From assembly GCA_029258735.1 (NCBI GenBank), contig JAPDKD010000029.1, forward strand, positions 1 to 42,125: a DNA stretch of 42,125 nt, read 5' to 3'. A model generated the notes under the pieces. The model was not told the DNA's origin, made no database searches, and saw only the letters and a program-made list of their open reading frames with translations. Shown here one piece after another: positions 23,554-42,125 of the stretch (the first letter of the stretch is position 1; each line of letters starts with the position of its first letter). The translations under genes and the position numbers were made by a program. Origin of the DNA: an archaeon (GTDB lineage Archaea; Thermoproteota; Thermoprotei; Thermofilales; JAPDKD01).

Positions 23554-24903
23554 ATGAAAATAGTTGTTGTGGGTTACGGCGCCGCGGGAATGACTGCTGC
23601 CAGCTACGCTGCGCTCACTAATAGAAAGGCTGAAATCGTAGCCTTTGAAAAAAGAAGCTATGCTGTCTATCATCCATGCTCGCTTCCCGACCTAATCAGC
23701 GGGATTGTGAAGTCGCCTGAGCACCTTAAAGAGCCGCCTCCCCGACTTCCAAGGTTGAAGGTTTATACATCCACTGTTGTTAAGGAGATTAAAAGAGGAG
23801 AGAAGAAAGTAGTTGTGCAGGACTTAAAGAGTGGAAAAGAGTGGGAGGAAGACTATGACAGGCTTATTCTTGCAACAGGCTCGTTCCCCTATGTTCCCCG
23901 CGTTATAAAAATCTTAAATAGCGATGGCGTCCACGTGCTGAAGAAGGTGGAAGATGCTGAAGCTATTTTGGAACTCGCGAACAAGTATAGGCGGGCTGTT
24001 GTCGTTGGAGGCTCCTTCATAGGCATTGAGACTGCCCATGCGTTGAGGAAAAAGGGGCTGGAAGTAACTTTAATTGAGTATTTTCCCCAGGTGATGCCCG
24101 GCAAGCTATACGAGCAGCTTGCAAGGGTCGTTGAAAAGGCCCTAGAGGAGGAAGGCATTGTTCTAAAGCTTGGCGTGGGTGTGAAGGAAATTTCGGGTGA
24201 AGTGGGCAATAAGAAAATTATTGCAGGAGATGAAGAGGTAAGCGGAGACTTTGTTGTAATGGCTACTGGCACGAGACCTGATGTAGAGTTAGCTAAGAAG
24301 GCTGGCCTCGAGATAGGCGAAAGCGGAGGAATAAAAGTAAATGTAAAAATGCAGACTTCAGACCCCTCGATATACGCCGCGGGGGACAACGCGGAAGTGA
24401 TCAATATTGTTACGGGGCAACCCATGCTTAGCCTCTTGGGAAGCACAGCCGTGAAGATGGGAAGGGTTGCAGGCATTAATGCTGCTGGCGGCGAAGCTAA
24501 GTTCCGGGGAGTTGTTAACGTCTGGATAGTTAACATTGAAAGCTTAAGGTTTGGTGGTGCTGGGATAACTTTTGATCAGGCTAAGAAACTGGGGTTAAAT
24601 GCTGTCGCTGTTACAGTGCAGGTTCCAGAGAAGCTGGAAATATATCCTGACGCGCACGAGATGACTGTGAGGCTGATTGCTGATAAAGACTCTGGAAGAA
24701 TACTTGGCGGCCAAATTCTTGGTAAAGAGGGTGTACTATGCCGCCTAGACGTGCTAGCTACGGTGCTTTCTCGCGGAATGACGGCAGAAGAGCTGGCTGA
24801 GCTTGAGCTAGCATATACTCCTAGCGTGTGTGAGATTATCGATCCGCTTCACGTAGCGGCCGATGCCCTCCTGAAACGTCTTCGCAGATATAAAACTATC
24901 TAA
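23554..24903 (+). CDS. FAD-dependent pyridine nucleotide-disulfide oxidoreductase, CoA-disulfide reductase/NADH oxidase-like
   Basis: 'VVVGYGAAGMTAASYAA', active-site Cys context 'YHPCSLPDLISG', 'AVVVGGSFIGIETAHALRKKG', 'PSIYAAGDNAEV'. Confidence 0.85.
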   Translation: MKIVVVGYGAAGMTAASYAALTNRKAEIVAFEKRSYAVYHPCSLPDLISGIVKSPEHLKEPPPRLPRLKVYTSTVVKEIKRGEKKVVVQDLKSGKEWEEDYDRLILATGSFPYVPRVIKILNSDGVHVLKKVEDAEAILELANKYRRAVVVGGSFIGIETAHALRKKGLEVTLIEYFPQVMPGKLYEQLARVVEKALEEEGIVLKLGVGVKEISGEVGNKKIIAGDEEVSGDFVVMATGTRPDVELAKKAGLEIGESGGIKVNVKMQTSDPSIYAAGDNAEVINIVTGQPMLSLLGSTAVKMGRVAGINAAGGEAKFRGVVNVWIVNIESLRFGGAGITFDQAKKLGLNAVAVTVQVPEKLEIYPDAHEMTVRLIADKDSGRILGGQILGKEGVLCRLDVLATVLSRGMTAEELAELELAYTPSVCEIIDPLHVAADALLKRLRRYKTI

Positions 24904-27900
24904 TTTTTTCTTTTACCGTTTTGTCTATAAAGCGCTTGCCAAGTTAGCATAGTTTTCCTTATTTCATCCACAACGGAGTAAATGAGGTTCATGTAATGTT
25001 CTCCGGTTACCGACTTAGGCGTTATAACTAATTCTACGGAATAATACTTTTGGCTTTCCCTGCGATACCGCAACAGAATCACTGCGGACGCTCTTCCCTC
25101 AGATACGAGGTCAGCGTCTATTTCCAGAATCTTTTCGGAACCTAGGTCTTTTATATGTATAAGTGTGCGAAGAAGAACCGAATGCTGCGGATACGTGGAC
25201 TCGATTCTTCTCTTTACGAATTCCAAGTGTTGCCCGATAAGGTTAGCGTCTATTCTGAATGGAAGGAACTCTTTAACTTCTCCGCCTGTCATTCGCTTGA
25301 AGCTCCATCGCCTGATCAGGCCCGGAACAGCTTGTAAAGACGCTTTTTCAGCAGGTTTCAGCCCAGCTACCACGCCAGTTATGACTGAAAGCAGGAGAGC
25401 GGTTAAAAGCCATTCCGGAGTAAATGATGGCGTAACTCCAAGTATTTTGCTTGCTTTATCTGCCGCTACAAGTGCCGCGAGCATTGAGTAGCCAGCTACG
25501 GATGCACCCAATAATACTGCTTCAAAGATGAAAATGAGGCTTACGTGAGAGGGATTCATGCCTAACGCCGTGTATATTGATAATTCTTTTCTTCTCTCAT
25601 ATACTGACGCTATCATGGCGTTCGCTACCGTGAAGCCGCTTAGGAGCATGACCATTATCGCCTCCAACCTAGACGCTTTTACTCCAATCGTTCTGTAGAA
25701 GGTGTATGCTATCCCATCTTTGCCGTAGGTTACTGGCACTCCTAGCTGCTCGACTAGCTTCTTGGCAGCTTCTTCTGCTACTTTTTCGTCAGGTATATAG
25801 AACGCATAGCCTATAAATCGCGCTCCGAGTTTAGACGCCTCTTTGGGCGGAACCACAGCTATTTCTGAGGAACGTATATACTGTTTTCCGCTTCCGCGTT
25901 CACCGTGAATTATTATCCAGGGACGTAGGGGCGCTCCGTTTATATCGCTGATTCCCGCTAGGCGGTATTCAGAGAAGATACCGGCGACTCTGAGTCTAGT
26001 TATTTCGTATAGGCCGTTGCTGCTGTATATTTCGACGATGTCGCCTACTTTTAATCCTGTCTTTTTCGCCGCATAGGAGCTTATCACTATCCACTTTTCG
26101 TCGGAAAAGTTTCCTCTAGCAATTAGCGTTGAGCCTATGCCTGATACTTTATCTTCCGCTTCGAAGTCCACGCCTATAACTCCGTTAATAATAGTTGTTC
26201 CTTTAGGCCCTTTTAGTCGAAGACCGAGTTTATAACTTGGCGACAAGTATCTTGGAGCTGGCACTGCATTGGGTGCCAGCTCCTTTACTAAAGACACTTC
26301 ATCGAGGTACAGCTTTACGCCGATTTTAATGGCCGGACCTTTCACAGATGTATGTATCGGGAAGGGGGTTTTCGTTATTGAAACCCCATAACCTACAGAT
26401 GAAAAAGCCACAAACGCAAAGACTGCTGCGGCCATAGTTATAAACGTTAAGATGCTTCTAAGAGGCCTTCTTCTTAGGTTTCTAGCTGCGAGACTTATGG
26501 CGGCGCTAAGAGTTGCTATAACGCCTGTAGACTCTCTTGATTGTCCTTCGAAGCTTTGTGGTATTTCACTGTAGATGAAATACGCTATTATGAATAGAAA
26601 TGAACCTATCATAAGCAATTTTCTAACGAAGAGCGGGTCATCCAGCGAGATTATACCGCTTCCCTCCGGGAAAAATTGGAATAGCAAAGCCCAAGACGCT
26701 AAGGTTAAAACTATAAACGTATAGATCCTTTTTTCTCCGTCAAATAATATCTGTGCGAACGCCAGTGAAGATAAGGCTAGCGCGGCTAAAATTATTGCAA
26801 ATATAGCGGAACCCGCCATACTCGACGACTTAGAATATTCGATGGATTTCTTCGCTATCGAAAAGGCCGATTCAGCAGCTAGTTTAGCGGAAATGTACCT
26901 TGAAGCGTTTAAATCCTTTTGGGCGCGTAGTAGAAGCTCTTTCGCTTCTTCTAGAAGGTTTTTAGCGGCTTGAGAGTAAGCAGTATATTTTGACGCTTGC
27001 TCATACGCTTTTTCGGCCTCTTCCACCGCAATGTATGCCTCGTTTATCGATTCTTCAGCAGCTTTTCTCCAGGCCTTATTTTGAAGGTCTTCTATGTATA
27101 GGAGCCTGCCAGGCTCATTCAGTTTTACGCTTGTTTCTACGTGATACCCTGAAAAGTATAGAAATACTCTAATGTATTCTTGCGATGTTCGTACTATTAG
27201 TATTCTTCTTCCGCTGGTCGTGGTATAAAGATAGTAGGGCACGTATTCCCAGGAAGCTTTAGATGAAACGTAGACGTATGTGCTGCTTGGGATTGTCGCA
27301 ATCATGTATCTTTTAGGCTTTAGAGCTGTTAAGCTATTTCCCTCGTATGTCAATAGGCTTGATTTTCCGTAGCATATTATTCTGGCATATTCTATAGATG
27401 CTTTTTGTAAATCTGCGGGTAGGTAGGCAATCCCGTCTTTCGATGTTCTCCACGCCCATATTCTTCTCGTCTTGTCGACTTTATATATTAGAAATATGTG
27501 CGCGTTCGGCAGCGGAGAGCCTAGCGAGTCTTTTATTGTCCTAGGTTCTAATCTTTTAGGAGCATAAAACGTGAAAACGTTAATGTCACCACTGTATACG
27601 CTTATGGGGATAGATTCTCCATTCAAAGTAATGTTAGCATGTATTATTGGCGTATACTTGTAGATAAGGTCATAAACGATTATAGTTGCGTTAGAGTTTT
27701 CCTGTTTTTCCACGCGGTATATTCGAATATTTTTCTTCTGGGATATGCCCACACGGGAGGAGTTAGATACTACGATAATTACTTTGGAGAATGATAATAG
27801 ATTTAGATGTATGATCGCATCGCTCCATATGCTTATTGGGTAAAAGTCTATGTTTAGTTCTTCAAGAACGTTTTTTAGCCTTATATAGTATACGCCTGGG

Positions 27901-28478
27901 TAAATGTTTATTTCGAATTTTTCTCTATCGACAACTCTTTCAATATATGTTGGTCCCTTCAATGTGAAAAGAGATAGGGGCGGGTTTAGAGGCCCAGAAT
28001 ATTTTACAGCTAATTTTATAGTCCCTTTATGGAGTTTTTTAGTTGTTTTGCTAAGCGCACTTACAGCAGCATTGATCGGATCTTTACTCGTTTTTATAAT
28101 TAATCCATTGCCTTTTTCTATTGTTTCTTCACGCGAGTAATTACCGCTTAATATTACCACTCCTCCACTTTCCGCGTACTCTAGCAAAGTTTTAGATAGC
28201 TTTCTCGCCACTACGGCGTCGGCGAGTAGAGTGGAGCAGTTTTCCAAGTCTAGAAATGGGGGTGGCGATGAAACATGCACCATTGTCCCGTTCACTTCGT
28301 ATGTTTCAGGCGTTAGATTTCTGTCTAGAAACCATATTACCACGTTTCTTGGGTTTGATTTAACAATTGCGATGAAATTTATTGTTGAGAAGAAGATTAG
28401 TAGTACTATAAAGAGTGATAATGGGTGATTCGACCTTATGAACCGCCGAAAAGTGTGGTTCGGAGGCATACTGCTCAT
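24900..28478 (-). CDS. Large FtsX/MacB-type permease-family membrane protein with extracellular N-terminal domains and distinct C-terminal domain
   Basis: N-terminal TM/signal; extracellular region; helical 'AEEAEKAYEQASK' segment; 'AARNLRRRPLRSILTFITMAAAVFAFVAF' (MacB PCD entry); 'VYERRKELSIYTALGMNPSHVSLIFIFEAVLLGA' (FtsX). Confidence 0.8.
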   Translation of the reverse strand: MSSMPPNHTFRRFIRSNHPLSLFIVLLIFFSTINFIAIVKSNPRNVVIWFLDRNLTPETYEVNGTMVHVSSPPPFLDLENCSTLLADAVVARKLSKTLLEYAESGGVVILSGNYSREETIEKGNGLIIKTSKDPINAAVSALSKTTKKLHKGTIKLAVKYSGPLNPPLSLFTLKGPTYIERVVDREKFEINIYPGVYYIRLKNVLEELNIDFYPISIWSDAIIHLNLLSFSKVIIVVSNSSRVGISQKKNIRIYRVEKQENSNATIIVYDLIYKYTPIIHANITLNGESIPISVYSGDINVFTFYAPKRLEPRTIKDSLGSPLPNAHIFLIYKVDKTRRIWAWRTSKDGIAYLPADLQKASIEYARIICYGKSSLLTYEGNSLTALKPKRYMIATIPSSTYVYVSSKASWEYVPYYLYTTTSGRRILIVRTSQEYIRVFLYFSGYHVETSVKLNEPGRLLYIEDLQNKAWRKAAEESINEAYIAVEEAEKAYEQASKYTAYSQAAKNLLEEAKELLLRAQKDLNASRYISAKLAAESAFSIAKKSIEYSKSSSMAGSAIFAIILAALALSSLAFAQILFDGEKRIYTFIVLTLASWALLFQFFPEGSGIISLDDPLFVRKLLMIGSFLFIIAYFIYSEIPQSFEGQSRESTGVIATLSAAISLAARNLRRRPLRSILTFITMAAAVFAFVAFSSVGYGVSITKTPFPIHTSVKGPAIKIGVKLYLDEVSLVKELAPNAVPAPRYLSPSYKLGLRLKGPKGTTIINGVIGVDFEAEDKVSGIGSTLIARGNFSDEKWIVISSYAAKKTGLKVGDIVEIYSSNGLYEITRLRVAGIFSEYRLAGISDINGAPLRPWIIIHGERGSGKQYIRSSEIAVVPPKEASKLGARFIGYAFYIPDEKVAEEAAKKLVEQLGVPVTYGKDGIAYTFYRTIGVKASRLEAIMVMLLSGFTVANAMIASVYERRKELSIYTALGMNPSHVSLIFIFEAVLLGASVAGYSMLAALVAADKASKILGVTPSFTPEWLLTALLLSVITGVVAGLKPAEKASLQAVPGLIRRWSFKRMTGGEVKEFLPFRIDANLIGQHLEFVKRRIESTYPQHSVLLRTLIHIKDLGSEKILEIDADLVSEGRASAVILLRYRRESQKYYSVELVITPKSVTGEHYMNLIYSVVDEIRKTMLTWQALYRQNGKRKN

Positions 28479-28950
28479 CCATGCAATATTATCAATGTTA
28501 TCCGTCTATCAACTCCCTCTATTTTCCGAGTTTTTAAATACTTTGCTGTATTCGGCAGTTGTGGGGTCGGCGGTAGCATTGGGGTTAATTAGCGTTAAAG
28601 CAGGGTTGTTAGCTGCCTTAATTACATACATGGCGTCTGTTCTTTTTTCTTTAAACAACGTGGGTTTTGCTCAAGCCTTTCTTTACTGGCTTAGCCTTCT
28701 CTTTGAGGTTGGTTTCACAGTTTTAGTGTCATGCGCATTCATAAATCAAATTAGGGTTGAAAAGATTGTTGCATGGACTTTTATTTCTAATTTCTTAGCT
28801 ATATTGACTTTAGCAGTACTAGAGTATGGTAGAAATCCTGACTATGTTTTTAGCGTTATTTTGCCTTGGTCGACTCCTCACCTGCTACTTTCTGCCCTTA
28901 TGACCCCTGTTTTCTATTTTCTTTATTCCAGCAAAATCCACCAGGGATAA
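28438..28950 (+). CDS. Hypothetical polytopic membrane protein
   Basis: 170 aa ORF with ~4-5 hydrophobic helices; overlaps both neighbours (41 nt at the 5' end, 66 nt at the 3' end). Confidence 0.55.
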   Translation: MNRRKVWFGGILLIHAILSMLSVYQLPLFSEFLNTLLYSAVVGSAVALGLISVKAGLLAALITYMASVLFSLNNVGFAQAFLYWLSLLFEVGFTVLVSCAFINQIRVEKIVAWTFISNFLAILTLAVLEYGRNPDYVFSVILPWSTPHLLLSALMTPVFYFLYSSKIHQG

Positions 28951-30708
28951 TAGTATTATTGTAATTAGTAATGCAACGTCGACATTAAGTGCTTTCATTA
29001 TGTTTAGTTTTACTGGTACGGGTTTGTTGTCGTCTTCTCCGGGCACTATATCGTTTGGGTCTACTTGAACTGTTAACGGTTCAAACGGCAGAGATATATC
29101 TTTCTCGCCTTGTGTGCCATTCACCCATAAAGTTACTGTTATAGATGTTAGCCTCGTGTTTATTCTTACTGGGACCAGAGCTATAACAGGGTCTCCCGTA
29201 TTTTTTACCTTTAGGTGCAAAGTATAGGTTAGGCCTGTTTGTTTTGCGTAGGTTTCAACGCTATAGTGCGGCACGCCTGACCCGTATACCCAGGAATTAA
29301 AGAACCAGTCTAGGCTTGCCCCGTAAACTCGCTCGGCTTCTACTTTAAAGTCTCTTAGTTTGCATATTTTAAATCGGTATTTTTCCTGTAATCTGTGCAT
29401 GAGTTCAAAATATTTTGCATCACCCATCAACCAGTTTAGCATTCGCAGAACCATTGCTCCCTTGTTATATACTATAGTGAAGTATGCTTGCGAATCTGCG
29501 CCGAAATCGAACACTGACCACGCTATCGGATAATCCTTGTCCCTAATTTTTAGGAACCGATAGTAGGGGCGCCTGACTGTTAAGTCAAATATTTCTTCGA
29601 ACTTTTTTTCACCGTACACCCACTTAAAGTACAGAGTGTCAGAATACTCGGCAAAGGGCTCGTCCATTATGGGTTCAAGTCCTTCGTGGTTTCCAACCAT
29701 GCCGTACCACCAGTTGTGTGCTGTTTCGTGCGCTACGACAAGTTCTAGGATTGTTTTTCTTTGTGGCGAGTATAAGCTTGATGTTATCATTACGAACATC
29801 GGATACTCCATTCCTCCGAACCAGCCATATACTTCGACAACACGGAATTCTGAGTAAGCGTATTCACCGTAGTATTTACTGTAAAGCTCTATAGATTTTA
29901 TTGCTGTGTTAAGCGCTATTTCGCCTGCCACTTCGTGGCCTAAAAGATAATAGGAATAAACCTTTACTTTTCTTCTGCCGACACTAGCCTCGCCGCTTAC
30001 AACCTCATAGTTCTTACTGACAGCGGCGGCGAATTCCCTTACTGGAAGCGGCGTATACCATTTATATATCCATTCGCCAGCTTTCTTTTTTATTTCATCT
30101 AGCCTGCCAGTAGCAGCCATTACATAGCCTTCGGGCACGGAGAAAGTTATGTTGTAGTATGCGCATTCAAAATAGAAGCTTTCTCCAGCATCCCAATACG
30201 GGTCTAGATTCCATCCCCGCTCGTCGTACACTGCCATGATAGGGTACCAGTGGGCTAAAGCGAATACTCCTGCGTAGTAGCCGAAACGATCTTCTTTAAT
30301 CGGAATTTTTACTTTAAACGATATTTCTATTTTTATAGAACTTGAAGGTAAAAGGGGCGTGGGTAAGAAGATTTTCAGAATTGTTCTATCTTCTCCTGTT
30401 ACAATAAATTTTGCCTCCTTTCCGTCAATACTTATTTTCCTTATTTCAATGGAGCCCCCTAGGCTTTTAAATGAGGGAGCGTTTGGATATACATGTAGAT
30501 AAAGCTCGTTAAATCCTAGGTCGCGCCTGTTTGTGTAATAGATTGTTTCGTTAGCTTGAATTTCTAGTTTTTCAACGTTTAACTTTGCTGATATTATATA
30601 CTTGTCATAAGAGTTTACCGCAGCAACCGCAAGAGTGGGAGTTGAACAGGTGCAGAAAAATAGAAAGGTGATAATAGTAATTAGAATGAAAAATTTATTG
30701 TTGTGCAT
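28885..30708 (-). CDS. Membrane-anchored M1 family (gluzincin) metallopeptidase
   Basis: N-terminal signal-like helix; 'GGMEYP'; 'VVAHETAHNWWYGMVGNHEGLEPIMDEPFAEY' = HExxH-18-E; C-terminal TM 'VALLITIILLSLVDFAGI' followed by basic residues. Confidence 0.88.
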   Translation of the reverse strand: MHNNKFFILITIITFLFFCTCSTPTLAVAAVNSYDKYIISAKLNVEKLEIQANETIYYTNRRDLGFNELYLHVYPNAPSFKSLGGSIEIRKISIDGKEAKFIVTGEDRTILKIFLPTPLLPSSSIKIEISFKVKIPIKEDRFGYYAGVFALAHWYPIMAVYDERGWNLDPYWDAGESFYFECAYYNITFSVPEGYVMAATGRLDEIKKKAGEWIYKWYTPLPVREFAAAVSKNYEVVSGEASVGRRKVKVYSYYLLGHEVAGEIALNTAIKSIELYSKYYGEYAYSEFRVVEVYGWFGGMEYPMFVMITSSLYSPQRKTILELVVAHETAHNWWYGMVGNHEGLEPIMDEPFAEYSDTLYFKWVYGEKKFEEIFDLTVRRPYYRFLKIRDKDYPIAWSVFDFGADSQAYFTIVYNKGAMVLRMLNWLMGDAKYFELMHRLQEKYRFKICKLRDFKVEAERVYGASLDWFFNSWVYGSGVPHYSVETYAKQTGLTYTLHLKVKNTGDPVIALVPVRINTRLTSITVTLWVNGTQGEKDISLPFEPLTVQVDPNDIVPGEDDNKPVPVKLNIMKALNVDVALLITIILLSLVDFAGIKKIENRGHKGRK

Positions 30709-30717
30709 TTTTATCTT

Positions 30718-33700
30718 TCACTGTAAGCCTTCTTTTCTAGCTTTGTTTATGTATTCCTGTCGTTCTTCTGGCTTTAGTCCCCTCCATATTAGTAGCTGTT
30801 TTCTTATTACGTCTGTTATTTGCCGAACGCCTCTAATCCACACGTGTTCTGTACCGCTCAGCCTCTTGAATATGATGGTCCAAGTTGTAGTCTTACCGAC
30901 CGTGTCTACCTTTAGCTGAGTGGTTGTAGCCACTCCCCAGTCGAAAGGTTTGATTCTTACCCTCATGTCCAGCACTCTGCTGCGCCCTCTTTCCACTTTT
31001 TCCTCTCTGTATTTAATGCGTTCTACCATGAAGGGTCCTTCTGCCTGTTCTGACTGGAAAAGCTGTAGGTATTCTTTGAGATATAGTACGGCTCCGGCTA
31101 CTTCGGCTCGGGATATTACGAATGGTATTTTCACGATGTAGGTGTCTCCTCTCCTTACTGCGTGTGCTTCAAGCCTCCATTTTCTCTCGAAGCTCGGCGT
31201 TACTAGCCGTGACGCGTAGCGGACAGGGTAGGCTGTTGCGGCTAGCGTTATTCCGATGGAAGCGAGTATCGAGAATACTATCCACATTGACCCTGCGTTA
31301 ACTTTTAGCCCCGTGACAAGCGTTGGCATGGAGATTCCGGCCATGTATCCGAGGAATGAGCTTACTATAGCTACTATGGTGAACTCCATTAGGAATATTC
31401 CTGCTACGTGCAGTGGTGAGAGTCCTACTGCGCTGAGGATTCCTATCTCTTTGGTTCTTTCGTAGACTGCTCCGAGTATGGAGCTAAGTATGGTAAACAT
31501 CAGAAGAACTTCCGGTATTAGAGCTTCTTGCCCTGTTACTTGCTGAGATGTTAGGGTTGCCATGCGTGTTACTTCATATTTTCCGTCTTTGCTAAGAGCA
31601 TAATATACGTTGTATCTGAAGAGTTGTGTAATTTTTTCAGCGACTTGTGGAGCCTTCTTGGGGTTCTTCAGCGTTATATGTATTGCGAATACTTGTCCTC
31701 CCATCTGTTTTGCTACCTCAACAGGCACAATAACTACCTCGGATGGATCCATGGGCTGGGCAGAGCGGAAGGCAACTCTTCCTCCGGCTTCTACTTCTCT
31801 GGAAAATGGAATAATTACGATTCCGTCGAGGTCTTTTATTGTTGATAGATAGACTTTTGAGTTGTTAATGATTCCTACTATTTCGAATCTTTTACCTAGA
31901 ATTTCTATTTTTCCGCCTATTCTAGCGTCCACTCCAGCTGATTTAAGGAGGTCTGCTAGTTCTGCAGATATTATGCAGACTCTCTCATTGCTATTTATGA
32001 ATGGCCGGCTTCCCGGGGTGAAGATAGCGTCCCAGTTTTCTTCGAAGGCTTTGATTATTTTGAAGTCTGCCGGGTCTAAGCCTAGAATCGCTCCTATAGT
32101 TATGGGCTGTCCCGCTGATGTTCTGGCTATTTCTATTTGCTGTCCTATTGGGTAGTAGAAGATTACTTCTGTTATATGTTCAATGTCGTCTCCGAACGCT
32201 GACTGTATCTGCTTTGACAGCAGTGACGGCAGCGGTCTAAATGAGCTTTCGCGTATTAGTAGTCCTTGGTAGCCGTAGCTTACCTCGTATGTTGCTACAG
32301 GCGCTACGTATCTCGTCGAGAGCACCGAGATTATTGAGACAAACGCCATTGTTGCTATCATTATGGAGATTATTAATAGGGAAGTTCTAACCCACCTTCT
32401 CCTCAGATTTCTGAGACCTAGAGATGCCGCCATCAGCATTGCGCTGAATTTGTCTAATTCTGCGAAGTGTTTTCCTACGAACTTCGTCCTTAGCTCCTTT
32501 ATTGCTTCTGTCGCGTGGCTGAAGGAGATTACTAGCGGCACAATAGACAGGATGAGCATTAGGAATGCTATCGCTACGAGCGGTAGGCTGGCTATTAAGG
32601 TGAAGCCTGGGTGGTTAAATACCATGAACGCTATGGCTGCTAGGAATATTGCTATGAACGCTGCAGCGCGCTTCTTAAGGTCTTCAAATTCGAATATTAG
32701 CCTCTCTAGCAGGTACGCGAAGGGCAGGGCTAACAGTAGGAAGAATACCGAGGCGTATGATGCGTCGAAGAACATTGTTCTTATCGCTACGTAGGCTTTT
32801 CGCTCAAGCAGTAGGGCTAGTACCGCGCTGCCTCTTGCTTCATACCATTTTTTCTGGGCGTAATATTCTTGCGCTTTCTTCCAGTTTGCCGCTGACTCGT
32901 TCATGTTTCTTTCTATGGGGTCTACGAAGAGACCTGTTCTCTTGGCTTCTTGCAGGCGTTTTTCATCGACTTTTCTGAAGCCGATGTAGTTTTCGAAGAT
33001 TGTGAATGGCATTATTACCTGTGTGCCGGGCTTTATGTTGTATCCTCTGGTTTTGTTGTTGAATATGGCTGCATACCACCTGGTTCCACCTAAGTCTACC
33101 ACTGCGTCGAATCTGGGCGTTTGAGCTAGGGCGGGGTTTTCGAAGACGACTAGCGTGCCCGTTGACATTTCTGGTGTTGGTACGAAGCCTACGTTTTCCC
33201 ACACAAAGCCGAAGAATCTCGCGTAGTTCTGAGTATAGTGGTCTATTACTAGGACTGGCAGGAATTCGGATACTGGTGATGCAGTATCGGGGTCAAGCAC
33301 GTCAAAGAACACTAGTGTTCCTGCCCTAAATACGCTGGATTCTATTTTGTTGACTGCTTGGTGCATTCTGGCTCTGAATGCACCTCGCATATATGTGCCG
33401 AAGTCTATTGCGTATTTTACTGGTCCCTCCGGCGGTTCGTCGTTGAAGGGGAAGATGGCATATGTCGCGATGTCGCTGGGCGCGATTGTGTGAATTACAT
33501 ATGTGCCGTTGGAGTCTGTTTTTACTACAAAATAGTGTCTCACGAAGAAGGGTAGCTGTCTAGCTGTTGACATTCCAAAGACTATTACTATCGAGTTGGG
33601 GACGGGTTTGTATACGCCTTCTGATTCGTTGAAGAATACTACTTTTCCTTCAAGGGTTCTTACACGTCCTGGAGCGTAGAGTTTTAGTATATCGTCAGGA

Positions 33701-35103
33701 TAGTCGTCGAGTAGGTATAGTAGAAGGTTTAGATAGGTGCTGCCTAGTTTTTCCGCGACTTCGCCGGGCTTTAGGTCTTTTCGCGAGGTTAATGTTTCGT
33801 AGGTATCTTGAGGTGTTGCTGTTCCCTCCCATATTGCTGGCGACCCGAAAGCTATACCTGGAATCTTTACCATTTCGAATATTTCGAAGTCGAAGTATCT
33901 TAGCCTTAGAACTTCTGCCTGAGTGGGGCTGTAGTCCCATAGTATGAGTTTGAAGCCGTAGTGTTTAGAGTAGGTTTCATTTACCAGCTTTATGAAGTCC
34001 TGCCGTACTGCAAATGTTGCTTGATCGTAGTCTAGCGGATAGTAGCTTTGGAAGTTTCCTCTATTGAATATTCCTGCATTTGCCGAGGATGATGAGAGGG
34101 ATAGTTCGAAAACAAAGCGTATGTCGTTGAGTAGGTCGTCTTTATGCTTGTATACAAACTCTCTGGCGCCTTGTAGGGCTTGGCGATATCCTGAGAAGAA
34201 GCCAAATATTAGTGTGTATCTGTGTTTTTTAGCTGCGGCTATTCTCGCTATTTCTAGCAGAGTTGCGGCGCTTAATGCGTCATCCGCTCCTTGAGCTAGA
34301 GCTGGTATTGCAGACCATGTGTCGTAGTGGGTTATTGCCATTATTGCTTCTTTCCTTTCACCGGGCAGTGTAGCTATTACGTTGTATGAAGGCTTGATTA
34401 CGTACTCCATTTTTACTACTATTTTTCCCTGCATCCCCAGCTGGTATAGTTTGAAGAAGTCTTCCTCGTTTACAGCTATTCGTGGGAAGTCTATTGGTAC
34501 CCAGAATCTCTTCCAGTAGTTATCGTACTCTGTGAATCGTGTTTGATTATTTATTAGGAATATAATTCCCTTCGCCCCTAGGTAGGCTGCCCATCTCCAA
34601 GCTTTCTCACTATCCCATTTCAGCGCAACTATCTTGTCTTTAACATCTATGCCTTCGAAGTCTCTTAGATCTCCGTACTTTGTTTCTACGTATATTACCT
34701 CTCCTTCAAGCCCGTCAGTGTAGGATGTTTCGATCGTATTGGGAAGTAAAGCGTAGGCCTTTATAACCTGCGCGCCTATTTGCGTATATAATACTAGCTC
34801 TGAATGCTGCTCGTATGGTACAGTTACGTTGAACTCCTCCAGCGTAACGTTATATCCATAGCTTGAAAGCACATCCGCAATGTATTTCGCCGCTTCTTCA
34901 CATTGAGGATATCCGGAGATTCGGGGTGCAAAGCTGGAAAGTTTTCTTAGGTGCTCTAGGACGTTGTTAACGTTTACATTAAGTTTTGACGGCTCATAGT
35001 TAGGCGGCAGCGCATATGTACTTGTTGAATAGAGACTCGATAGTATAAACACTGACAGTAATAATATTATTACCAGCTTTTTTCTTATCCTCATATACCT
35101 CAC
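30718..35103 (-). CDS. Fusion protein: signal peptide + PA/M28 peptidase-like domain (apparently degenerate) + carboxypeptidase-regulatory-like domain + FtsX/MacB-type permease + C-terminal domain
   Basis: M28-like 'NVIATLPGERKEAIMAITHYDTW...GADDALSAATLLEIARI'; CarboxypepD_reg-like 'LEGKVVFFNES...VKTDSNGTYVIH'; 'GLRNLRRRWVRTSLLIISIMIATMAFVSII' and 'VYERTKEIGILSAVGLSPLHVAGIFLMEF' FtsX signatures. Confidence 0.82.
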   Translation of the reverse strand: MRYMRIRKKLVIILLLSVFILSSLYSTSTYALPPNYEPSKLNVNVNNVLEHLRKLSSFAPRISGYPQCEEAAKYIADVLSSYGYNVTLEEFNVTVPYEQHSELVLYTQIGAQVIKAYALLPNTIETSYTDGLEGEVIYVETKYGDLRDFEGIDVKDKIVALKWDSEKAWRWAAYLGAKGIIFLINNQTRFTEYDNYWKRFWVPIDFPRIAVNEEDFFKLYQLGMQGKIVVKMEYVIKPSYNVIATLPGERKEAIMAITHYDTWSAIPALAQGADDALSAATLLEIARIAAAKKHRYTLIFGFFSGYRQALQGAREFVYKHKDDLLNDIRFVFELSLSSSSANAGIFNRGNFQSYYPLDYDQATFAVRQDFIKLVNETYSKHYGFKLILWDYSPTQAEVLRLRYFDFEIFEMVKIPGIAFGSPAIWEGTATPQDTYETLTSRKDLKPGEVAEKLGSTYLNLLLYLLDDYPDDILKLYAPGRVRTLEGKVVFFNESEGVYKPVPNSIVIVFGMSTARQLPFFVRHYFVVKTDSNGTYVIHTIAPSDIATYAIFPFNDEPPEGPVKYAIDFGTYMRGAFRARMHQAVNKIESSVFRAGTLVFFDVLDPDTASPVSEFLPVLVIDHYTQNYARFFGFVWENVGFVPTPEMSTGTLVVFENPALAQTPRFDAVVDLGGTRWYAAIFNNKTRGYNIKPGTQVIMPFTIFENYIGFRKVDEKRLQEAKRTGLFVDPIERNMNESAANWKKAQEYYAQKKWYEARGSAVLALLLERKAYVAIRTMFFDASYASVFFLLLALPFAYLLERLIFEFEDLKKRAAAFIAIFLAAIAFMVFNHPGFTLIASLPLVAIAFLMLILSIVPLVISFSHATEAIKELRTKFVGKHFAELDKFSAMLMAASLGLRNLRRRWVRTSLLIISIMIATMAFVSIISVLSTRYVAPVATYEVSYGYQGLLIRESSFRPLPSLLSKQIQSAFGDDIEHITEVIFYYPIGQQIEIARTSAGQPITIGAILGLDPADFKIIKAFEENWDAIFTPGSRPFINSNERVCIISAELADLLKSAGVDARIGGKIEILGKRFEIVGIINNSKVYLSTIKDLDGIVIIPFSREVEAGGRVAFRSAQPMDPSEVVIVPVEVAKQMGGQVFAIHITLKNPKKAPQVAEKITQLFRYNVYYALSKDGKYEVTRMATLTSQQVTGQEALIPEVLLMFTILSSILGAVYERTKEIGILSAVGLSPLHVAGIFLMEFTIVAIVSSFLGYMAGISMPTLVTGLKVNAGSMWIVFSILASIGITLAATAYPVRYASRLVTPSFERKWRLEAHAVRRGDTYIVKIPFVISRAEVAGAVLYLKEYLQLFQSEQAEGPFMVERIKYREEKVERGRSRVLDMRVRIKPFDWGVATTTQLKVDTVGKTTTWTIIFKRLSGTEHVWIRGVRQITDVIRKQLLIWRGLKPEERQEYINKARKEGLQ

Positions 35104-35120
35104 CTTTTTTCTCTAGATGA

Positions 35121-37052
35121 CTAATATATTTCAAACGCCACCGCCTGCCTCACGAAGCTTAACGCCGTCGCTAAACTGATTACTACGCTGGAGCCTGCAA
35201 ATATGCCTGCTGCAACTGTCATAATATACTTGTCTGCCCATTCTTTGCCCAGCTTCTTCTCCATGAGCTTCTTTAGGAGCAGGCCTAACACGATACCTGT
35301 TGAGTTACTGGGCATGTCCAGTATGCCCGCTACGAATCCGAAGAGCGTTGGAAGGCCGAAAAACGGAGACAAATAGGGGAGGAAGCGCGGAATTACTCCT
35401 ATAATGCTTCCCACAATAAACGAGCTGATAATGTAGTCCGGCTTGAATATTGTCCCCAGCTGTCTTGTTATGAATAAAGCTCTTAGAAGAGCGTCGGCCG
35501 GATAGCTTGGAGCGGGCATGAATCTTGACGGCACATCATACACGTACCATAACATGCCAGCTATTATAAGCCCTATGGCCCAAGTCATGTATGTTCCGAG
35601 AATGTGAGCTTTTGCTATGCTGAAAGGTTTGGTGTTTGTTAGTTGGGCTGCTTTGTAGCCTATACATATTGTAGCTCCCCCTATTGGCTGTGCAAGGAAC
35701 GGATTAAACCATACCCAATAGGACATTGGATTTTGCGGTCCAGGTACTGGGGTGGTTAACCATATTGTTACCTCGTTAAGATAGGGTATCGTGAAAAGCC
35801 CGCCTATTATTCCGGCAGATCTCGCTCCAATTATTGTATTTAAGAAGCTGAAAACTGTAGTTATAAGTATCGTCCCTATTAGGAAAGGTATACCCATTGG
35901 AGTAAACATGTAAGACAGACTAGCGAGAGTTAGTGCTGAAGCCAAGAACATTATAATTGCCATTTTCCCCGGTATTACTCCGCTTTTACGCGCGACGTCT
36001 GCAGGCATTTGGAGGAATGTTTTAATAGCTCCCGCTATTTGCTTTGCGCTTAAAATAGTTGGAACTATTCCTATGGCTACGAGTAGGCCTACTGCGAAGC
36101 TTAGCCAAAAGAATAGCTGTGGCTCGTACCATGCCCCCGTTAGAGTCCCCGGTATGAACATCGGTCTGCCTGGAGTATATGGATATTCTTTTAATCCCAT
36201 GCTTATGAATATGGGGGGCAGTATGACATAAGCTACTATTGATGTTACAAACTGCCATATAATCACTATTTCTGGGATTATTAAACCGAGAGCTATGACT
36301 AGGAGATTTGTCGTTATTCCTGTCGTTGCTCCATGAATTATAGGGTCTATCATTTCGGTGAAATCGTAGTGTATTGGGCTGATTATCATGAGCCGCCTGC
36401 CTAGAATTATTTCAGTCAGAGAGGGGAAGAGGATACGTATGGATTCGTAGATTGCGGCCATCATGGTGGCTATTGCGAAAATCCTGTATCGTTCCTTTTC
36501 GCCTCCTGAGAGAGCGATTGCTATTTCTGCGGCTACAGCGCCTGTGGGGAATGGTAGCTTTTCTACTTCAATGAATAATGTTCTAGCTACGAATGATAAC
36601 GAAATATCTGCGGCCAATACAAGCGTCATTGATAAGAGCCCTATTCCAATAGGTAATAGCCAATCGGGATGCCATATCATTCTGTGTATCATTGCGGGGC
36701 TGTTCTCAGGCGGGCAGGACCACCATGGAATGTTCTGTGCTATGCCGAACTGCTTCGTAATAGGGCTTTTCTTTAAATAAACTGTAAAAAGGAAGCCACC
36801 AGTGTATCCTGCTGCTATTGAAGCTCCCCAGCGGATCGTTGCTAGCTCGCTGGCTGAGAGAGGCGACATCATTATGAGGCCGAGCTCTCCGAAGATTAGC
36901 ATCGTGGCGTATGCCGCCGCTATTGTTCCGACAAGCTGACCAGTTGCTAAGTAAACCCATAGTAGAGCTGGCATCATAACGAGTGAAGAGAATAGCATTG
37001 CTAGAAGGGTTCTGGAGGTCAGTCCTTCCTGGAGCTGAACTGTGCTGGACAT
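35121..37052 (-). CDS. OPT-family-like oligopeptide transporter
   Basis: 643 aa polytopic protein; 'VEKLPFPTGAVAAEIAIAL', 'IIGARSAGIIGGLFTIPYLNE', 'IPRFLPYLSPFFGLPTLFGFVAGILDMPSNSTGIVLGLLL'. Confidence 0.65.
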   Translation of the reverse strand: MSSTVQLQEGLTSRTLLAMLFSSLVMMPALLWVYLATGQLVGTIAAAYATMLIFGELGLIMMSPLSASELATIRWGASIAAGYTGGFLFTVYLKKSPITKQFGIAQNIPWWSCPPENSPAMIHRMIWHPDWLLPIGIGLLSMTLVLAADISLSFVARTLFIEVEKLPFPTGAVAAEIAIALSGGEKERYRIFAIATMMAAIYESIRILFPSLTEIILGRRLMIISPIHYDFTEMIDPIIHGATTGITTNLLVIALGLIIPEIVIIWQFVTSIVAYVILPPIFISMGLKEYPYTPGRPMFIPGTLTGAWYEPQLFFWLSFAVGLLVAIGIVPTILSAKQIAGAIKTFLQMPADVARKSGVIPGKMAIIMFLASALTLASLSYMFTPMGIPFLIGTILITTVFSFLNTIIGARSAGIIGGLFTIPYLNEVTIWLTTPVPGPQNPMSYWVWFNPFLAQPIGGATICIGYKAAQLTNTKPFSIAKAHILGTYMTWAIGLIIAGMLWYVYDVPSRFMPAPSYPADALLRALFITRQLGTIFKPDYIISSFIVGSIIGVIPRFLPYLSPFFGLPTLFGFVAGILDMPSNSTGIVLGLLLKKLMEKKLGKEWADKYIMTVAAGIFAGSSVVISLATALSFVRQAVAFEIY

Positions 37053-37235
37053 TTTTACACCTCTTCATTTTAAAGCTATTTTTTATCAATGGATACCCCT
37101 ATATTTAAATAATTCCAGCTAAAGAGTTCTTTAATTAAAAATTTTTATAAGAAGAGCATCATTAAGCGATGGATGATATTTAGAACGTATAAATTTCAGA
37201 AAAAATATCAATATATTTTAATATATGTTGCTTTT

Positions 37236-39203
37236 TTATCCGCCCATTGCTTTAATCGCTGCACCTATTCCGCTGACTACCGCTCCGAATAGTCCGCCTG
37301 CTGCTGCTCCAGCGAAGAATGGTCTGGCTACTTGTTCGTCTAGCTTGGTGCCGCCTATCTTTACCACTAGCCACTTAATTATTAGTATTGGAAGGAATGG
37401 CCAGCCCCAGTCGATGTTTGCAGAGCTGCTCATAAGTACTGTGAGGCCTGCGACTATTGGTATGAATGGTATGGTGAATGCTACTCTCGCTTGCAGTATT
37501 GGTATGGCTATTGCTAGTAACAGCAGTATTATGAATACTCCGAGTTCGTCAGGTGATGGGCCATACCAAGTGAAGCCTCCTCTCACGTAGTTTCTCGCTC
37601 TCGGTATTGCTAGGACCCAGAGGCCATCTATGAATGTGCCGAATACGCCGTGGTTTATTCCGTATGAGTAGGTGAGGTAAGCCTCGAACATTTGTCCTCC
37701 GAAGGAGCCGATGACCAGGCCGATTATTATGGCTATGATTATGGTCTTTATTGAGTTTACGCGTCCTAGGAAGGCGAACCTTGAGCTTTCGAAGAAGGCT
37801 GAGGCGCCTATGTCGCCTCGGGTGAATAGTCTGCCCTGCATTGTGAAGCCGACTAGTGCTGCGGAGGGCTGGCTCGTGTCGATTAAGCCAGCGGCGTAGC
37901 ACATTTCGCCTACTACTGAAGATGCGTGTGCGTCCCATGTGTATTGTAGGTTGATGTATCCTAGTCCCATTACGCCCCACATTTGTAGGACGTATATCAG
38001 GAATAGGGATAGGAGGAACGCTGGCACTGCTGGGGCGCCTAGTGCAATGCCTATGCCAGTCAAAATTATTACTGCCACAAATGATAGTATCCACTGCATT
38101 TGCGGAGATACGAAGTCGTATTCTGGGTTCTTATCCTTTAGGGTTTCTGCTATATACTTCCATGCCGCTATATATGCGCCTATTACGCCTCCAGCTAGCA
38201 GGGCTACGCCTAGCGGGTGCAGCTTGTATGGTGCAAAGTACCACGCGTCAAAGTATATGTCGTCAAAAGCTGCTGATGGATCAAATTCTATTATTCCCGC
38301 GCTAATGTAGAACGGTACAACGACGAAGTTCACTATGAGCATTGTTATCATTATTGTAATTAGGGCGTCCATTGGGGCGAAGTAGCCGAACCAGCTCCAT
38401 GGGAAGACGCTGGCCATGTCTAACCCTATCGCCGCTCCAGGAATCATGCTCCATAGAATGCCAGGCTGTCCCGGTGTGTCACCTACATGACCTGGAATTA
38501 CTGGCACTCCAGGCCACAGAGTTGAAACCAGATATCCTTCGGTGAAGATTACGGTTATAAAGCCTATGAATAGGCCAAAGAGTAGCCAGTTTCTTCTTGA
38601 TCCTAGCAAGGGGACTTTCTCATCTGGAGGCTTTTCGACCGCAAGTGATACAGCTGTGAATGCAGCCGTGGTGGCCGGATACGGGAGACGCTGGATTTCT
38701 ACTATTTGTCGCCTCATCGGCATTAGACCAAATATTGATATAAAGACCAACACTAAAATAAGAACAAAGCCGACGATGAATTGTCCAAATAATTCGCCGA
38801 ACGGCGTTGGCTGTCCCCCGGGCAGAGCAGCTTCATAAAGGTGCTTTGGCAGCGTCAGCCAGCTTGGTACGAACGCCTTAAAGTCTGCCAGCCATGCCGG
38901 AGCTTCTGCGTTGGGGAGTACTAGTGCGCCTACCCAGAAGAACCATCCTGGGTAGGTTGCCGCAGATCCATATACCATTGCGTAGATTACGACGTATTCT
39001 GCAAAGGTGAACTTAATGTTGGTGTAGAGCTGGATTAGTGCTAGTATTACTACGGTCATGACGCTGACTTCTGCGGTTGCTACGAAGCCGCTGGTTGGCC
39101 CCAGTATAGCGTCAGCGAATACTAAGGCCAAGGAGCCAATTATTCCGACGATTATGGCCTTAGGGGTGAAGGCTTTTTCGACGGGCTTCTCGGTTGCGGA
39201 CAT
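37236..39203 (-). CDS. OPT-family-like transporter (second, divergent copy)
   Basis: 655 aa polytopic protein; 'IVEIQRLPYPATTAAFTAVSLAVEKPPDEKVPLLGSRRNWLLFGLFIG' resembles OPT 'LPFP' region; adjacent and co-directional with 35121-37052. Confidence 0.6.
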   Translation of the reverse strand: MSATEKPVEKAFTPKAIIVGIIGSLALVFADAILGPTSGFVATAEVSVMTVVILALIQLYTNIKFTFAEYVVIYAMVYGSAATYPGWFFWVGALVLPNAEAPAWLADFKAFVPSWLTLPKHLYEAALPGGQPTPFGELFGQFIVGFVLILVLVFISIFGLMPMRRQIVEIQRLPYPATTAAFTAVSLAVEKPPDEKVPLLGSRRNWLLFGLFIGFITVIFTEGYLVSTLWPGVPVIPGHVGDTPGQPGILWSMIPGAAIGLDMASVFPWSWFGYFAPMDALITIMITMLIVNFVVVPFYISAGIIEFDPSAAFDDIYFDAWYFAPYKLHPLGVALLAGGVIGAYIAAWKYIAETLKDKNPEYDFVSPQMQWILSFVAVIILTGIGIALGAPAVPAFLLSLFLIYVLQMWGVMGLGYINLQYTWDAHASSVVGEMCYAAGLIDTSQPSAALVGFTMQGRLFTRGDIGASAFFESSRFAFLGRVNSIKTIIIAIIIGLVIGSFGGQMFEAYLTYSYGINHGVFGTFIDGLWVLAIPRARNYVRGGFTWYGPSPDELGVFIILLLLAIAIPILQARVAFTIPFIPIVAGLTVLMSSSANIDWGWPFLPILIIKWLVVKIGGTKLDEQVARPFFAGAAAGGLFGAVVSGIGAAIKAMGG

Positions 39204-39454: not shown

Positions 39455-41269
39455 ATGTCGTTTAGTACTAAATATCGAGAAAAATACATTAAAAGGATGA
39501 TCTTAAGTTTCATATTACTAATTAGCCTAAGTAGTTTATCACCACATAGAGTTTCGACGCATCCGCATTTCACGTTTACCATCTTGATCACAAATAACAA
39601 TGTAGAAGGGCTTTTACCCGTAATGAAGATAAGCAATTATTCAACCCTTGTTTTTTCTAATTATTGTGATATAGGCTTTTCTACGTTTGAGAAAAACGAG
39701 AAAAGCGTTTTAATAAACCTCTCTTCACCATTAAGTATTATATTACATTTAATAAATAATATGCATGTACATCCAGACCAGATATTTATTTCCAACTCTT
39801 CGTGTTCCCTCTCAGCATATTATTCAGCAGGCCTCTCAGGTTCGGTAATTGTAAATATTGGAAGAAATGTAAGTTATAAAGATTTTCTGAAAGAACTCAA
39901 GCAGCATGGAATCACGGGAATAAAGACGTGCGGTTCAATTAAAAATATTGAGATCCAAGGTTCGAACAGACTTGTCGTTACATTTAAGGATGATGCGCTT
40001 TCGCGTTTAACTGCGGTTTATGCCGGCATGTCTAATGCGCATTTTCTTGTAGCTGAAGACTTAAACAGCATACGAGATGCTATAAAGCGGTATAATATAA
40101 CGTCAGTTGTGTATGTGATTTCTTCGAAGAATTTAATTAAAATGGGCCTTGTAGAGCTGTATAAACCAGTTATAGAGGCATATTCTGATAGATTTTTCCA
40201 CGTAAATATTGGCATAATTTCCGGATACAGTGATTCATGTGCAGTAAACTTTGCGTCGAGATCTCTTTACTATCTTGCTAAAGGAGTAAATGTTCAATCC
40301 GCTCTCTTGGCATATATGGAGGACGTTGAATTGTTGGCGGAAAAAATTATTCGTGAATTGGATAGAAGCGGAGTAAGTATATATCAAAAACTAGTTTCCT
40401 TTAACGAGCATGGAAACCTTACTAGAGAGAGTTTAATTGATTCTTTGAAGCAAGCTTCTGGCATAGTGTTCATTAACCTTCACGGTAATCCCTACGGAAT
40501 GGCTAGGACAACTACAGGTCCCTACGTGGTTACTGCACACAGTCTCGAAGAAGTTAATTCTAGGAACATAATTGTTACGTTATCTTGTTCAACATGCAAT
40601 TTTAACGAAATACTCAATCCGAAGAACAGTATTGCTCTTGCATTTATTTCTAAGGGCGCTTTAGCGTATATTGGGGCTAGAAAGGTTGAATACGCTGGCG
40701 AGCTTGAAACAAGCACTGCTTTTCCAGAACTAATTACGTATATGCTGCTTCGAGGATACACTCTAGGTTCAGCTGTGCGATGGGTGAACAATATACATAT
40801 TCGAGCCGCAAGTGGCGTTGACCCGTGGATTGCAGCTTATACTTGCTTGCTCGGCGAGCCCGACTTACGTCTCTTAAATGCTACTGAGCAAGAAGACGCG
40901 GCTATAAAATTGAATGAGAATGAGATTAGCGTAAATATTCTTAGGGAGACGTGCTGTGTTACATCAAGGATCGAATTTCCTTATGCGGCTGAAGAAGTAA
41001 AATTTGAATTAAAAAATCCCGATGTTAGACGTGTTCTATTTATAACAAAGGAAAGGGGCAAGTATATTTTAAACATATTTTTGACAAAAAAGATAAGCAA
41101 AGAGGTTGGTGATTTTAAGCCAGGAGATGTAGTTATTATTAAATATTATAAGAAGTTATCGGTTATTGATTTACTACCATATGCTGCTGCTACTTTTATA
41201 GCCTTCTTAGCCGTTATTCTTTATGTAAAAAGGAGAAAAAGAAAAATTTTAAGGCCAGATTCCTCTTAG
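39455..41269 (+). CDS. Membrane-anchored clan CD cysteine peptidase-like protein (C25/CHAT-like)
   Basis: Signal-like N-terminus 'RMILSFILLISLSSLS'; 'GIVFINLHGNPYG' (His) and 'NIIVTLSCSTCNF' (Cys) dyad context; 'SIALAFISKGALAYIGARKVEYAGE...LLRGYTLGSAVRWVNN'; C-terminal TM + 'KRRKRK'. Start at ATG 39455 preceded by GGGAGAG. Confidence 0.65.
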   Translation: MSFSTKYREKYIKRMILSFILLISLSSLSPHRVSTHPHFTFTILITNNNVEGLLPVMKISNYSTLVFSNYCDIGFSTFEKNEKSVLINLSSPLSIILHLINNMHVHPDQIFISNSSCSLSAYYSAGLSGSVIVNIGRNVSYKDFLKELKQHGITGIKTCGSIKNIEIQGSNRLVVTFKDDALSRLTAVYAGMSNAHFLVAEDLNSIRDAIKRYNITSVVYVISSKNLIKMGLVELYKPVIEAYSDRFFHVNIGIISGYSDSCAVNFASRSLYYLAKGVNVQSALLAYMEDVELLAEKIIRELDRSGVSIYQKLVSFNEHGNLTRESLIDSLKQASGIVFINLHGNPYGMARTTTGPYVVTAHSLEEVNSRNIIVTLSCSTCNFNEILNPKNSIALAFISKGALAYIGARKVEYAGELETSTAFPELITYMLLRGYTLGSAVRWVNNIHIRAASGVDPWIAAYTCLLGEPDLRLLNATEQEDAAIKLNENEISVNILRETCCVTSRIEFPYAAEEVKFELKNPDVRRVLFITKERGKYILNIFLTKKISKEVGDFKPGDVVIIKYYKKLSVIDLLPYAAATFIAFLAVILYVKRRKRKILRPDSS

Positions 41270-42125
41270 CTGCATTGCGCGCGCTACTCTTGAGACAGCA
41301 ATGATGTAGGCTGCTGTTCGCATGTCAACATTTCTTTCTTTGTATATCTTGTAGACCTCTTCGAAGGCTTTTACCATCTTGTTTTCTAGCTTCTGGAAGA
41401 CTTCCTCTTTTGTCCACCATTCTCTTGTAAGCGCTTGCACCCACTCGAAGTATGAGCAAGTGACACCGCCCGCGTTGGCTAGGATGTCTGGAACTACGAC
41501 TATTCCTTTCTCGTGGAGTATCTTGTCTGCTTCTGGTGTGGTTGGGCCGTTTGCTCCCTCACTTATCACCTTGGCCTTTATCTTGTCGGCGTTTTTCTCG
41601 GTTATTACTCCCTCGATTGCAGCGGGGACTAGTATTGTGACGTCCAGCTCTAGCAGTTCTTCGTTGGATATATTCCTAGCTCCCGGGTAACCTACTACAC
41701 TTCCAGTTTTTCTCTTGTGCTCCATTACTGCTTCTGGGTTTAGACCGTCGGGGTTGTATATTCCTCCTTTGGAGTCGCTGACTGCTACGACTTTGCAGCC
41801 CCATTGGTGAGAGAAGTAAGCGGCGTAGTATCCGACGTTTCCGAATCCCTGAACTGCCACAGTTATGGGCTTACTTAGCCCGAGCTTCTTTACGGCTTCT
41901 CTAGCAGTTATCATTGTTCCCAGCCCTGTCGCTTCGGTTCTTCCCTGTGATCCACCTATTTCTATAGGCTTAGCCGTTACTACTCCCGGCTCCCATCTTC
42001 CCTGCAAGCCGCTGTATGTGTCGGCTATCCAAGCCATTGTTTGCGGGTTTGTGTAGACGTCCGGTGCGGGTATATCTACGTATGGTCCTATGAATTCTCT
42101 TATGGCGTAGGTGTATCTCCTGGTT
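41249..42125 (-). CDS. gdhA: Glutamate dehydrogenase (C-terminal part; gene runs off the window edge)
   Basis: 'IGGSQGRTEATGLG', 'VAVQGFGNVGYYAAYF', 'VPAAIEGVITEKNADKIKAKVISEGANGPTTPEAD', 'DILANAGGVTCSYFEWVQ'; frame stays open to 42125. Confidence 0.92.
   Translation of the reverse strand, partial: TRRYTYAIREFIGPYVDIPAPDVYTNPQTMAWIADTYSGLQGRWEPGVVTAKPIEIGGSQGRTEATGLGTMITAREAVKKLGLSKPITVAVQGFGNVGYYAAYFSHQWGCKVVAVSDSKGGIYNPDGLNPEAVMEHKRKTGSVVGYPGARNISNEELLELDVTILVPAAIEGVITEKNADKIKAKVISEGANGPTTPEADKILHEKGIVVVPDILANAGGVTCSYFEWVQALTREWWTKEEVFQKLENKMVKAFEEVYKIYKERNVDMRTAAYIIAVSRVARAMQLRGIWP

Follow-up and report, generated by a model that had tools for sequence, protein, structure and literature searches.

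The M28 aminopeptidase fold, without its catalytic residues, serves as a binding or scaffold domain in transferrin receptor 1, nicalin and nicastrin. FtsX-type permeases such as MacB, LolCDE and ADOP are built on a membrane core of MacB_PCD and FtsX domains, and a type VII ABC transporter has its cognate ATPase encoded with the permease. OPT-family transporters take up peptides or metal chelates by coupling to protons. Barley Yellow stripe 1 (YS1; PDB 7wsr/7wst), a secondary transporter of this family, is a homodimer (PMC9691689). Here we describe a gene cluster with likenesses to all three, found in a stretch of 42,125 nucleotides ('the window'; contig JAPDKD010000029.1) from a Thermofilales metagenome-assembled genome of 1.41 Mb, 85% complete. 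On the minus strand, the window encodes in succession OPT-B (37236..39203, 655 aa), a DUF6785/DUF6784-type member of the OPT superfamily; OPT-A (35121..37052, 643 aa; Pfam OPT, E 3.8e-11); M28-FtsX (30718..35103, 1461 aa), with a pseudo-M28 ectodomain, a membrane half of MacB/FtsX type and a C-terminal domain in the cytosol; and a membrane-anchored M1 aminopeptidase (28885..30708, 607 aa). A first-pass annotation of the sequence had read these four genes as an operon for peptide capture, cleavage and uptake at the cell surface, and open reading frame calls confirm their coordinates, strand and spacing (183, 17 and 9 nt). We favour, at a probability of roughly 0.6, a modified reading in which the locus is the peptide-type version of a widespread archaeal uptake unit, where an OPT-A/OPT-B heteromer would work together with M28-FtsX as its receptor or scaffold.

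The gene cluster is far beyond chance, with two OPT genes beside an M28-FtsX gene recurring in dozens of loci. A scan of 84,980 species genomes returned 79 loci, an incomplete sample because a single conserved peptide pattern was used, in Thermofilaceae, unnamed Thermoprotei, Brockarchaeota, Bathyarchaeota, records titled Thaumarchaeota or Calditenuaceae, and one member of Alkanophagales. M28-FtsX is a multi-copy family in the relatives, and an OPT gene adjoins nearly every copy, lying no more than two genes away in 74 of the 83 distinct full-length M28-FtsX genes. When 130 OPTs were placed in a tree, the midpoint split separated clade A, which includes the window's 35121-37052 gene, from clade B, which includes 37236-39203. 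Fifty-four of the 83 M28-FtsX modules contain exactly one A and one B, one contains ABB, 17 only A, two only B and nine none, some of the incomplete modules being contig ends; modules with AA alone or BB alone number zero among the 83. OPT-A adjoins M28-FtsX on the same strand in 61 loci, within 50 nt in 57 of them and with a median gap of -1 nt; the placement of OPT-B is looser, often upstream or divergent. These arrangements show that one OPT-A, one OPT-B and one M28-FtsX are inherited together, and that the genes for the first and the last of these overlap, or almost do, in most cases. The window's own genome carries three copies of each (3:3:3), and across 61 genomes OPT-A is present in 18 of 18 with a strong M28-FtsX and in 1 of 43 others (Fisher 1.4e-14), DUF6785 following nearly the same genome set. 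Strong family matches occur in 46 of 299 sampled Thermoproteota genomes; some of these matches involve nothing but FtsX relatives that lack the M28 part. The unit was not found in near-complete genomes of genus g4, which belongs to the same order as the window. Genomic support for a three-gene unit is thus strong, and as judged from gene content its core is OPT-A, OPT-B and pseudo-M28-FtsX, the peptidases being locus-specific additions. Searches of open-licence papers for the OPT/M28/FtsX combination and for DUF6785 found no earlier description of such a unit.

The three proteins also co-evolve, as far as their distance matrices tell. Correlations between these matrices were 0.90 for M28-FtsX and OPT-A, 0.94 for M28-FtsX and OPT-B, and 0.91 for the two OPTs, values that 0 of 2000 permutations reached, a test that alone does not remove shared ancestry. 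Within genomes, the corresponding correlations among paralogues were 0.76, 0.87 and 0.74 (27 pairs; 46 modules, near-duplicates removed). Sets of paralogues also correspond between genomes: in 477 tests, the closest M28-FtsX paralogue of another genome came with the closest OPT-A 341 times and with the closest OPT-B 306 times, where 196 were expected.

A few variants of the unit deserve mention. In six loci from Thermoproteota and Calditenuaceae records (L114, L148, L149, L150, L152 and L154), a full-length M28-FtsX gene has no OPT gene within several genes and instead precedes two conserved genes (339 and ~296 aa), which makes these loci a variant with a different partner; our initial guess that these two encode peptide ABC permeases was dropped, their sequences looking by eye unlike such permeases. 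A complete OPT-B / M28-FtsX / OPT-A set stands in a record (L140) titled as Candidatus Alkanophagales, a lineage outside Thermoproteota, and was possibly acquired by transfer. Four genomes (G066, G069, G073 and G108) have M28-FtsX frames with one TAG inside the match, which may reflect read-through, the end of the frame or decay of the copy.

Assignment of the 37236-39203 gene to the OPT superfamily, proposed in the first-pass annotation, is upheld by family profile and fold despite the lack of a Pfam match of its own. Members of the OPT-B family match the DUF6785 profile in 38 of 44 cases and OPT in 5 of 44, with matches to DUF6784 as well, and the OPT-B and OPT-A profiles align over 592 columns (E 6e-44). 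The AlphaFold2 (AF2) model of OPT-B (pLDDT 80, pTM 0.89) matches barley YS1 (E 3.7e-9, TM 0.62-0.68) and nothing else convincingly. The notion that OPT-B is not an OPT is ruled out by this combination of profile and fold. Both proteins show homology to the OPT family (PF03169) together with many membrane segments: a crude scan counts 10-11 hydrophobic stretches in either one. Neither the OPT-A nor the OPT-B profile matched any entry of the PDB. Likeness to YS1 thus lies in the Pfam match of OPT-A and the fold of OPT-B. Unlike YS1, the archaeal system pairs two diverged OPT clades one to one, has a pseudo-M28-FtsX partner and includes an OPT from DUF6785/DUF6784. Since YS1 is a homodimer, an OPT-A/OPT-B heteromer would be a natural guess.

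The M28 part of M28-FtsX has kept the fold and lost the catalytic residues. The window protein matches Pfam M28 (E 1.4e-15), and an AF2 model of residues 1-500 (pLDDT 90.7) finds M28 aminopeptidases in Foldseek with a best E of 2e-27. In alignment with the aminopeptidase 2ek8, however, Tyr306-Arg307 replace the Glu-Glu pair that supplies the catalytic and one zinc-binding residue (residues 304-308, S-G-Y-R-Q; codons 34180..34194, minus strand), Ser335 replaces a zinc Asp, and the last His has become Ala429. Across the family the catalytic Glu, the zinc Glu and the last His are each present in 0 of 57 sequences, and the remaining zinc ligands vary (first His 32/57, bridging Asp 18/57, the other Asp, Ser335 in the window, 41/57), so that the catalytic Glu and the His, Asp, Glu, Asp, His di-zinc set of an M28 metallopeptidase are not found together. 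The active-site columns rule out an active M28 enzyme, and with it the cleaving role given to this domain in the first-pass annotation; that the domain is a pseudo-peptidase is well supported by these alignments. The loop that replaces the Glu-Glu pair is itself conserved, mostly as S-G-H-[WY]-Q, which suggests a binding role. Transferrin receptor 1 and nicalin match M28-FtsX by profile, the former also by fold. Here, unlike in those proteins and nicastrin, an FtsX/MacB-like membrane half is joined to the domain, which is also associated with transporters; nothing points to a specific common ancestry with these eukaryotic proteins. A special kinship with nicalin was considered and set aside, the match being weak; because active aminopeptidases score better, the resemblance may be mere shared loss of the active site.

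The M1 gene and the divergent plus-strand gene for a C25-like protease (39428 (GTG) or 39455 (ATG)..41269) favour peptides as the substrate at this particular locus. The M1 translation (Pfam M1, E 1.6e-17) has HETAH, a Glu after 18 residues and GGMEY, that is, an intact HExxH-x18-E with a GxMEN-like motif, and terminal hydrophobic segments. The C25-like protein matches the C-terminal half of Pfam C25 (E 3.5e-7), has candidate His (NLHG) and Cys (SCSTC) residues picked by eye only, and ends in a predicted C-terminal membrane anchor. Both look like membrane-anchored surface peptidases, and for this reason surface digestion and uptake is the best reading for the window. In one relative (L046) the order C25 / OPT-B / OPT-A / M28-FtsX / M1 recurs in the same orientation, and in another (L050) the same gene families are present but rearranged. 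The operon proposed in the first-pass annotation, for which conservation of the neighbourhood had been named as the check, therefore stands as a conserved and very probably functional unit, with its core in dozens of loci and its full order in L046; its parts need relabelling. Of the proposed peptide cleavage and uptake module, the surface peptidases and the uptake survive as the probable reading for this window, and cleavage by M28 and dedication of the core to peptides do not.

That the core is dedicated to peptides is not supported by its surroundings elsewhere. In G187 and G098 its neighbours include a GH57 gene whose product has a signal-like N-terminus, a starch synthase and a GH57 glucanotransferase (Pfam was run on G098). 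G187 matches Staphylothermus marinus, and counting genes from glycogen synthase Smar_1393 would make its OPT-A Smar_1400, which has been named an OPT-family peptide transporter (PMC2678158); that paper names one OPT and does not link to it the neighbouring OPT-B, the pseudo-M28-FtsX or the alpha-glucan context. In other loci, Gfo/Idh/MocA oxidoreductases, URO-D-like proteins and glycoside hydrolases are commoner in proximal than in distal flanks, an enrichment that is only suggestive, since de-duplication of the proximal set was incomplete. Peptide uptake is likely at this locus, judging from its neighbours, and should not be assumed for the family. We note a protein of ~610 aa with a YidC-periplasmic-like domain match adjoining M28-FtsX in two Staphylothermus-like loci (L197:11796-13622 and L198:4709-6547), which could be a substrate-binding surface protein.

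The membrane half of M28-FtsX, with MacB_PCD and FtsX by Pfam, resembles the structures of MacB, LolC and YtrF, and this raises the question of an ATPase. A search for an ABC exporter with its ATPase encoded nearby came up empty: no matching ATPase turned up beside M28-FtsX in the window's own genome, 85% complete, whose two strong MacB/LolD-type ATPases are encoded next to other FtsX genes, and any ABC gene close to M28-FtsX is rare among the 83 loci. The cognate ATPase expected with a type VII permease was thus not found. M28-FtsX further departs from MacB, LolCDE and ADOP in its large pseudo-M28 ectodomain, extra hydrophobic segments and cytosolic C-terminal domain. Further large FtsX proteins, apparently with other ectodomains, are encoded on two contigs of the same genome (C20 and C21; L041:10219-13197 and L042:10595-13423) and, at 1,800 aa, in relatives, which suggests that ectodomain-FtsX proteins with no ATPase beside them form a wider family.

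Three other explanations need to be weighed against an OPT pair served by M28-FtsX. M28-FtsX might be the membrane part of a MacB/LolCDE-like ABC machine whose ATPase is encoded elsewhere, the OPTs being parallel to it and not its partners. The structural resemblance just described and the conserved coupling-helix region would agree with such an arrangement, which we nevertheless consider unlikely, as no more than 3 of the 83 loci have an ABC gene within four genes, the two strong MacB/LolD-like ATPases of the genome each adjoin another FtsX gene, and M28-FtsX co-evolves with the OPT pair. Alternatively, the core might import oligosaccharides or another non-peptide substrate even in the window, with the peptidases serving glycoprotein breakdown or being unrelated neighbours. 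The alpha-glucan genes of G098 and G187 and the sugar-type genes of proximal flanks, rare in distal ones, lend this idea some weight, but C25, M1 and FtsX2, a second FtsX protein described below, travel with the window-type unit in relatives and Pfam found no sugar enzyme beside the unit in the window, and we regard it as slightly less probable still. Least probable to us is the version of the first-pass annotation, in which M28-FtsX and M1 would both cleave surface peptides for import by two peptide-specific OPTs; gene content, spacing, the intact M1 motif and the adjacent C25-like and glutamate dehydrogenase genes all accord with it, but the M28 catalytic and zinc residues are lost in all 57 family members, and the core also turns up among alpha-glucan genes and in loci that lack these peptidases.

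Several observations weigh against the reading of a receptor-coupled OPT pair that we prefer. The six Calditenuaceae-type M28-FtsX genes without an OPT nearby imply that M28-FtsX can have another partner. The window's cluster is nearly intact in only one relative, L046, whose contig ends after M1, and is rearranged in L050. The FtsX coupling-helix region (ER..EI..S..G.SP) is still conserved and the genome is 85% complete, so an ATPase might act in trans. Being inherited together is no proof that the proteins form a physical complex, and the direction of transport is assumed from knowledge of the OPT family.

With these points in mind, we propose that OPT-A and OPT-B form a heteromeric secondary transporter, with the YS1 homodimer as model, and that M28-FtsX is most likely the receptor or scaffold for the pair. 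The dead peptidase pocket would capture oligomeric substrate on the outside of the cell, and the FtsX-like part in the membrane might then hand the substrate to the OPT pair, or gate it, without an ATPase of its own. Local hydrolases would set the substrate: here the membrane-anchored C25-like endopeptidase and the M1 aminopeptidase, with FtsX2, would cut proteins to short peptides for import by the OPT pair, and in Staphylothermus the corresponding task, on alpha-glucans, would fall to the GH57 enzyme whose gene adjoins the unit. We would go further only tentatively, at somewhat less than even odds, to suggest a new class of secondary transporters in archaea, in which OPT-A and OPT-B would form an obligate heteromer and an FtsX/MacB-type membrane protein, working without an ATPase, would gate it and offer its dead M28 domain as substrate receptor; receptor and local hydrolases together would set specificity for peptides or glycans. 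A fixed uptake core with interchangeable surface hydrolases would resemble, by analogy, the concept of polysaccharide utilisation loci, from which the unit differs in being archaeal and OPT-based, neither SusCD nor ABC.

Two further genes complete the neighbourhood. FtsX2 (24900..28478, minus strand, 1192 aa), an ectodomain followed by MacB_PCD/FtsX, is encoded downstream of M1 at a distance of 406 nt and was missed in the first-pass annotation, which had its four genes right and its extent one gene short. Its ectodomain has no Pfam match; M1 is followed by FtsX2 in L191 and L192, the two are also neighbours in L050, and they may form a second sub-module. At the window's edge, beside the C25-like gene (repeated in L046 and L050), a glutamate dehydrogenase fragment (41249..42124, minus strand; Pfam, NCBIfam) is context only; this gene and the C25-like one had both been called before, and both were found.

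The unit is carried by several, mostly uncultured, thermophilic archaeal lineages (Thermofilales, Brockarchaeota, Bathyarchaeota and others), with many copies in some genomes, and is thus probably a main nutrient entry route, masked by annotation as an 'OPT peptide transporter' plus an 'M28 peptidase.' If these M28 genes were scored as secreted peptidases, the inferred capacity of such genomes for protein degradation would come out too high. Because the unit is present in a genome matching the cultured Staphylothermus marinus, the model is testable. If it is true, the OPT family would gain a receptor-dependent heteromeric form, and the FtsX/MacB fold an ATPase-free role.

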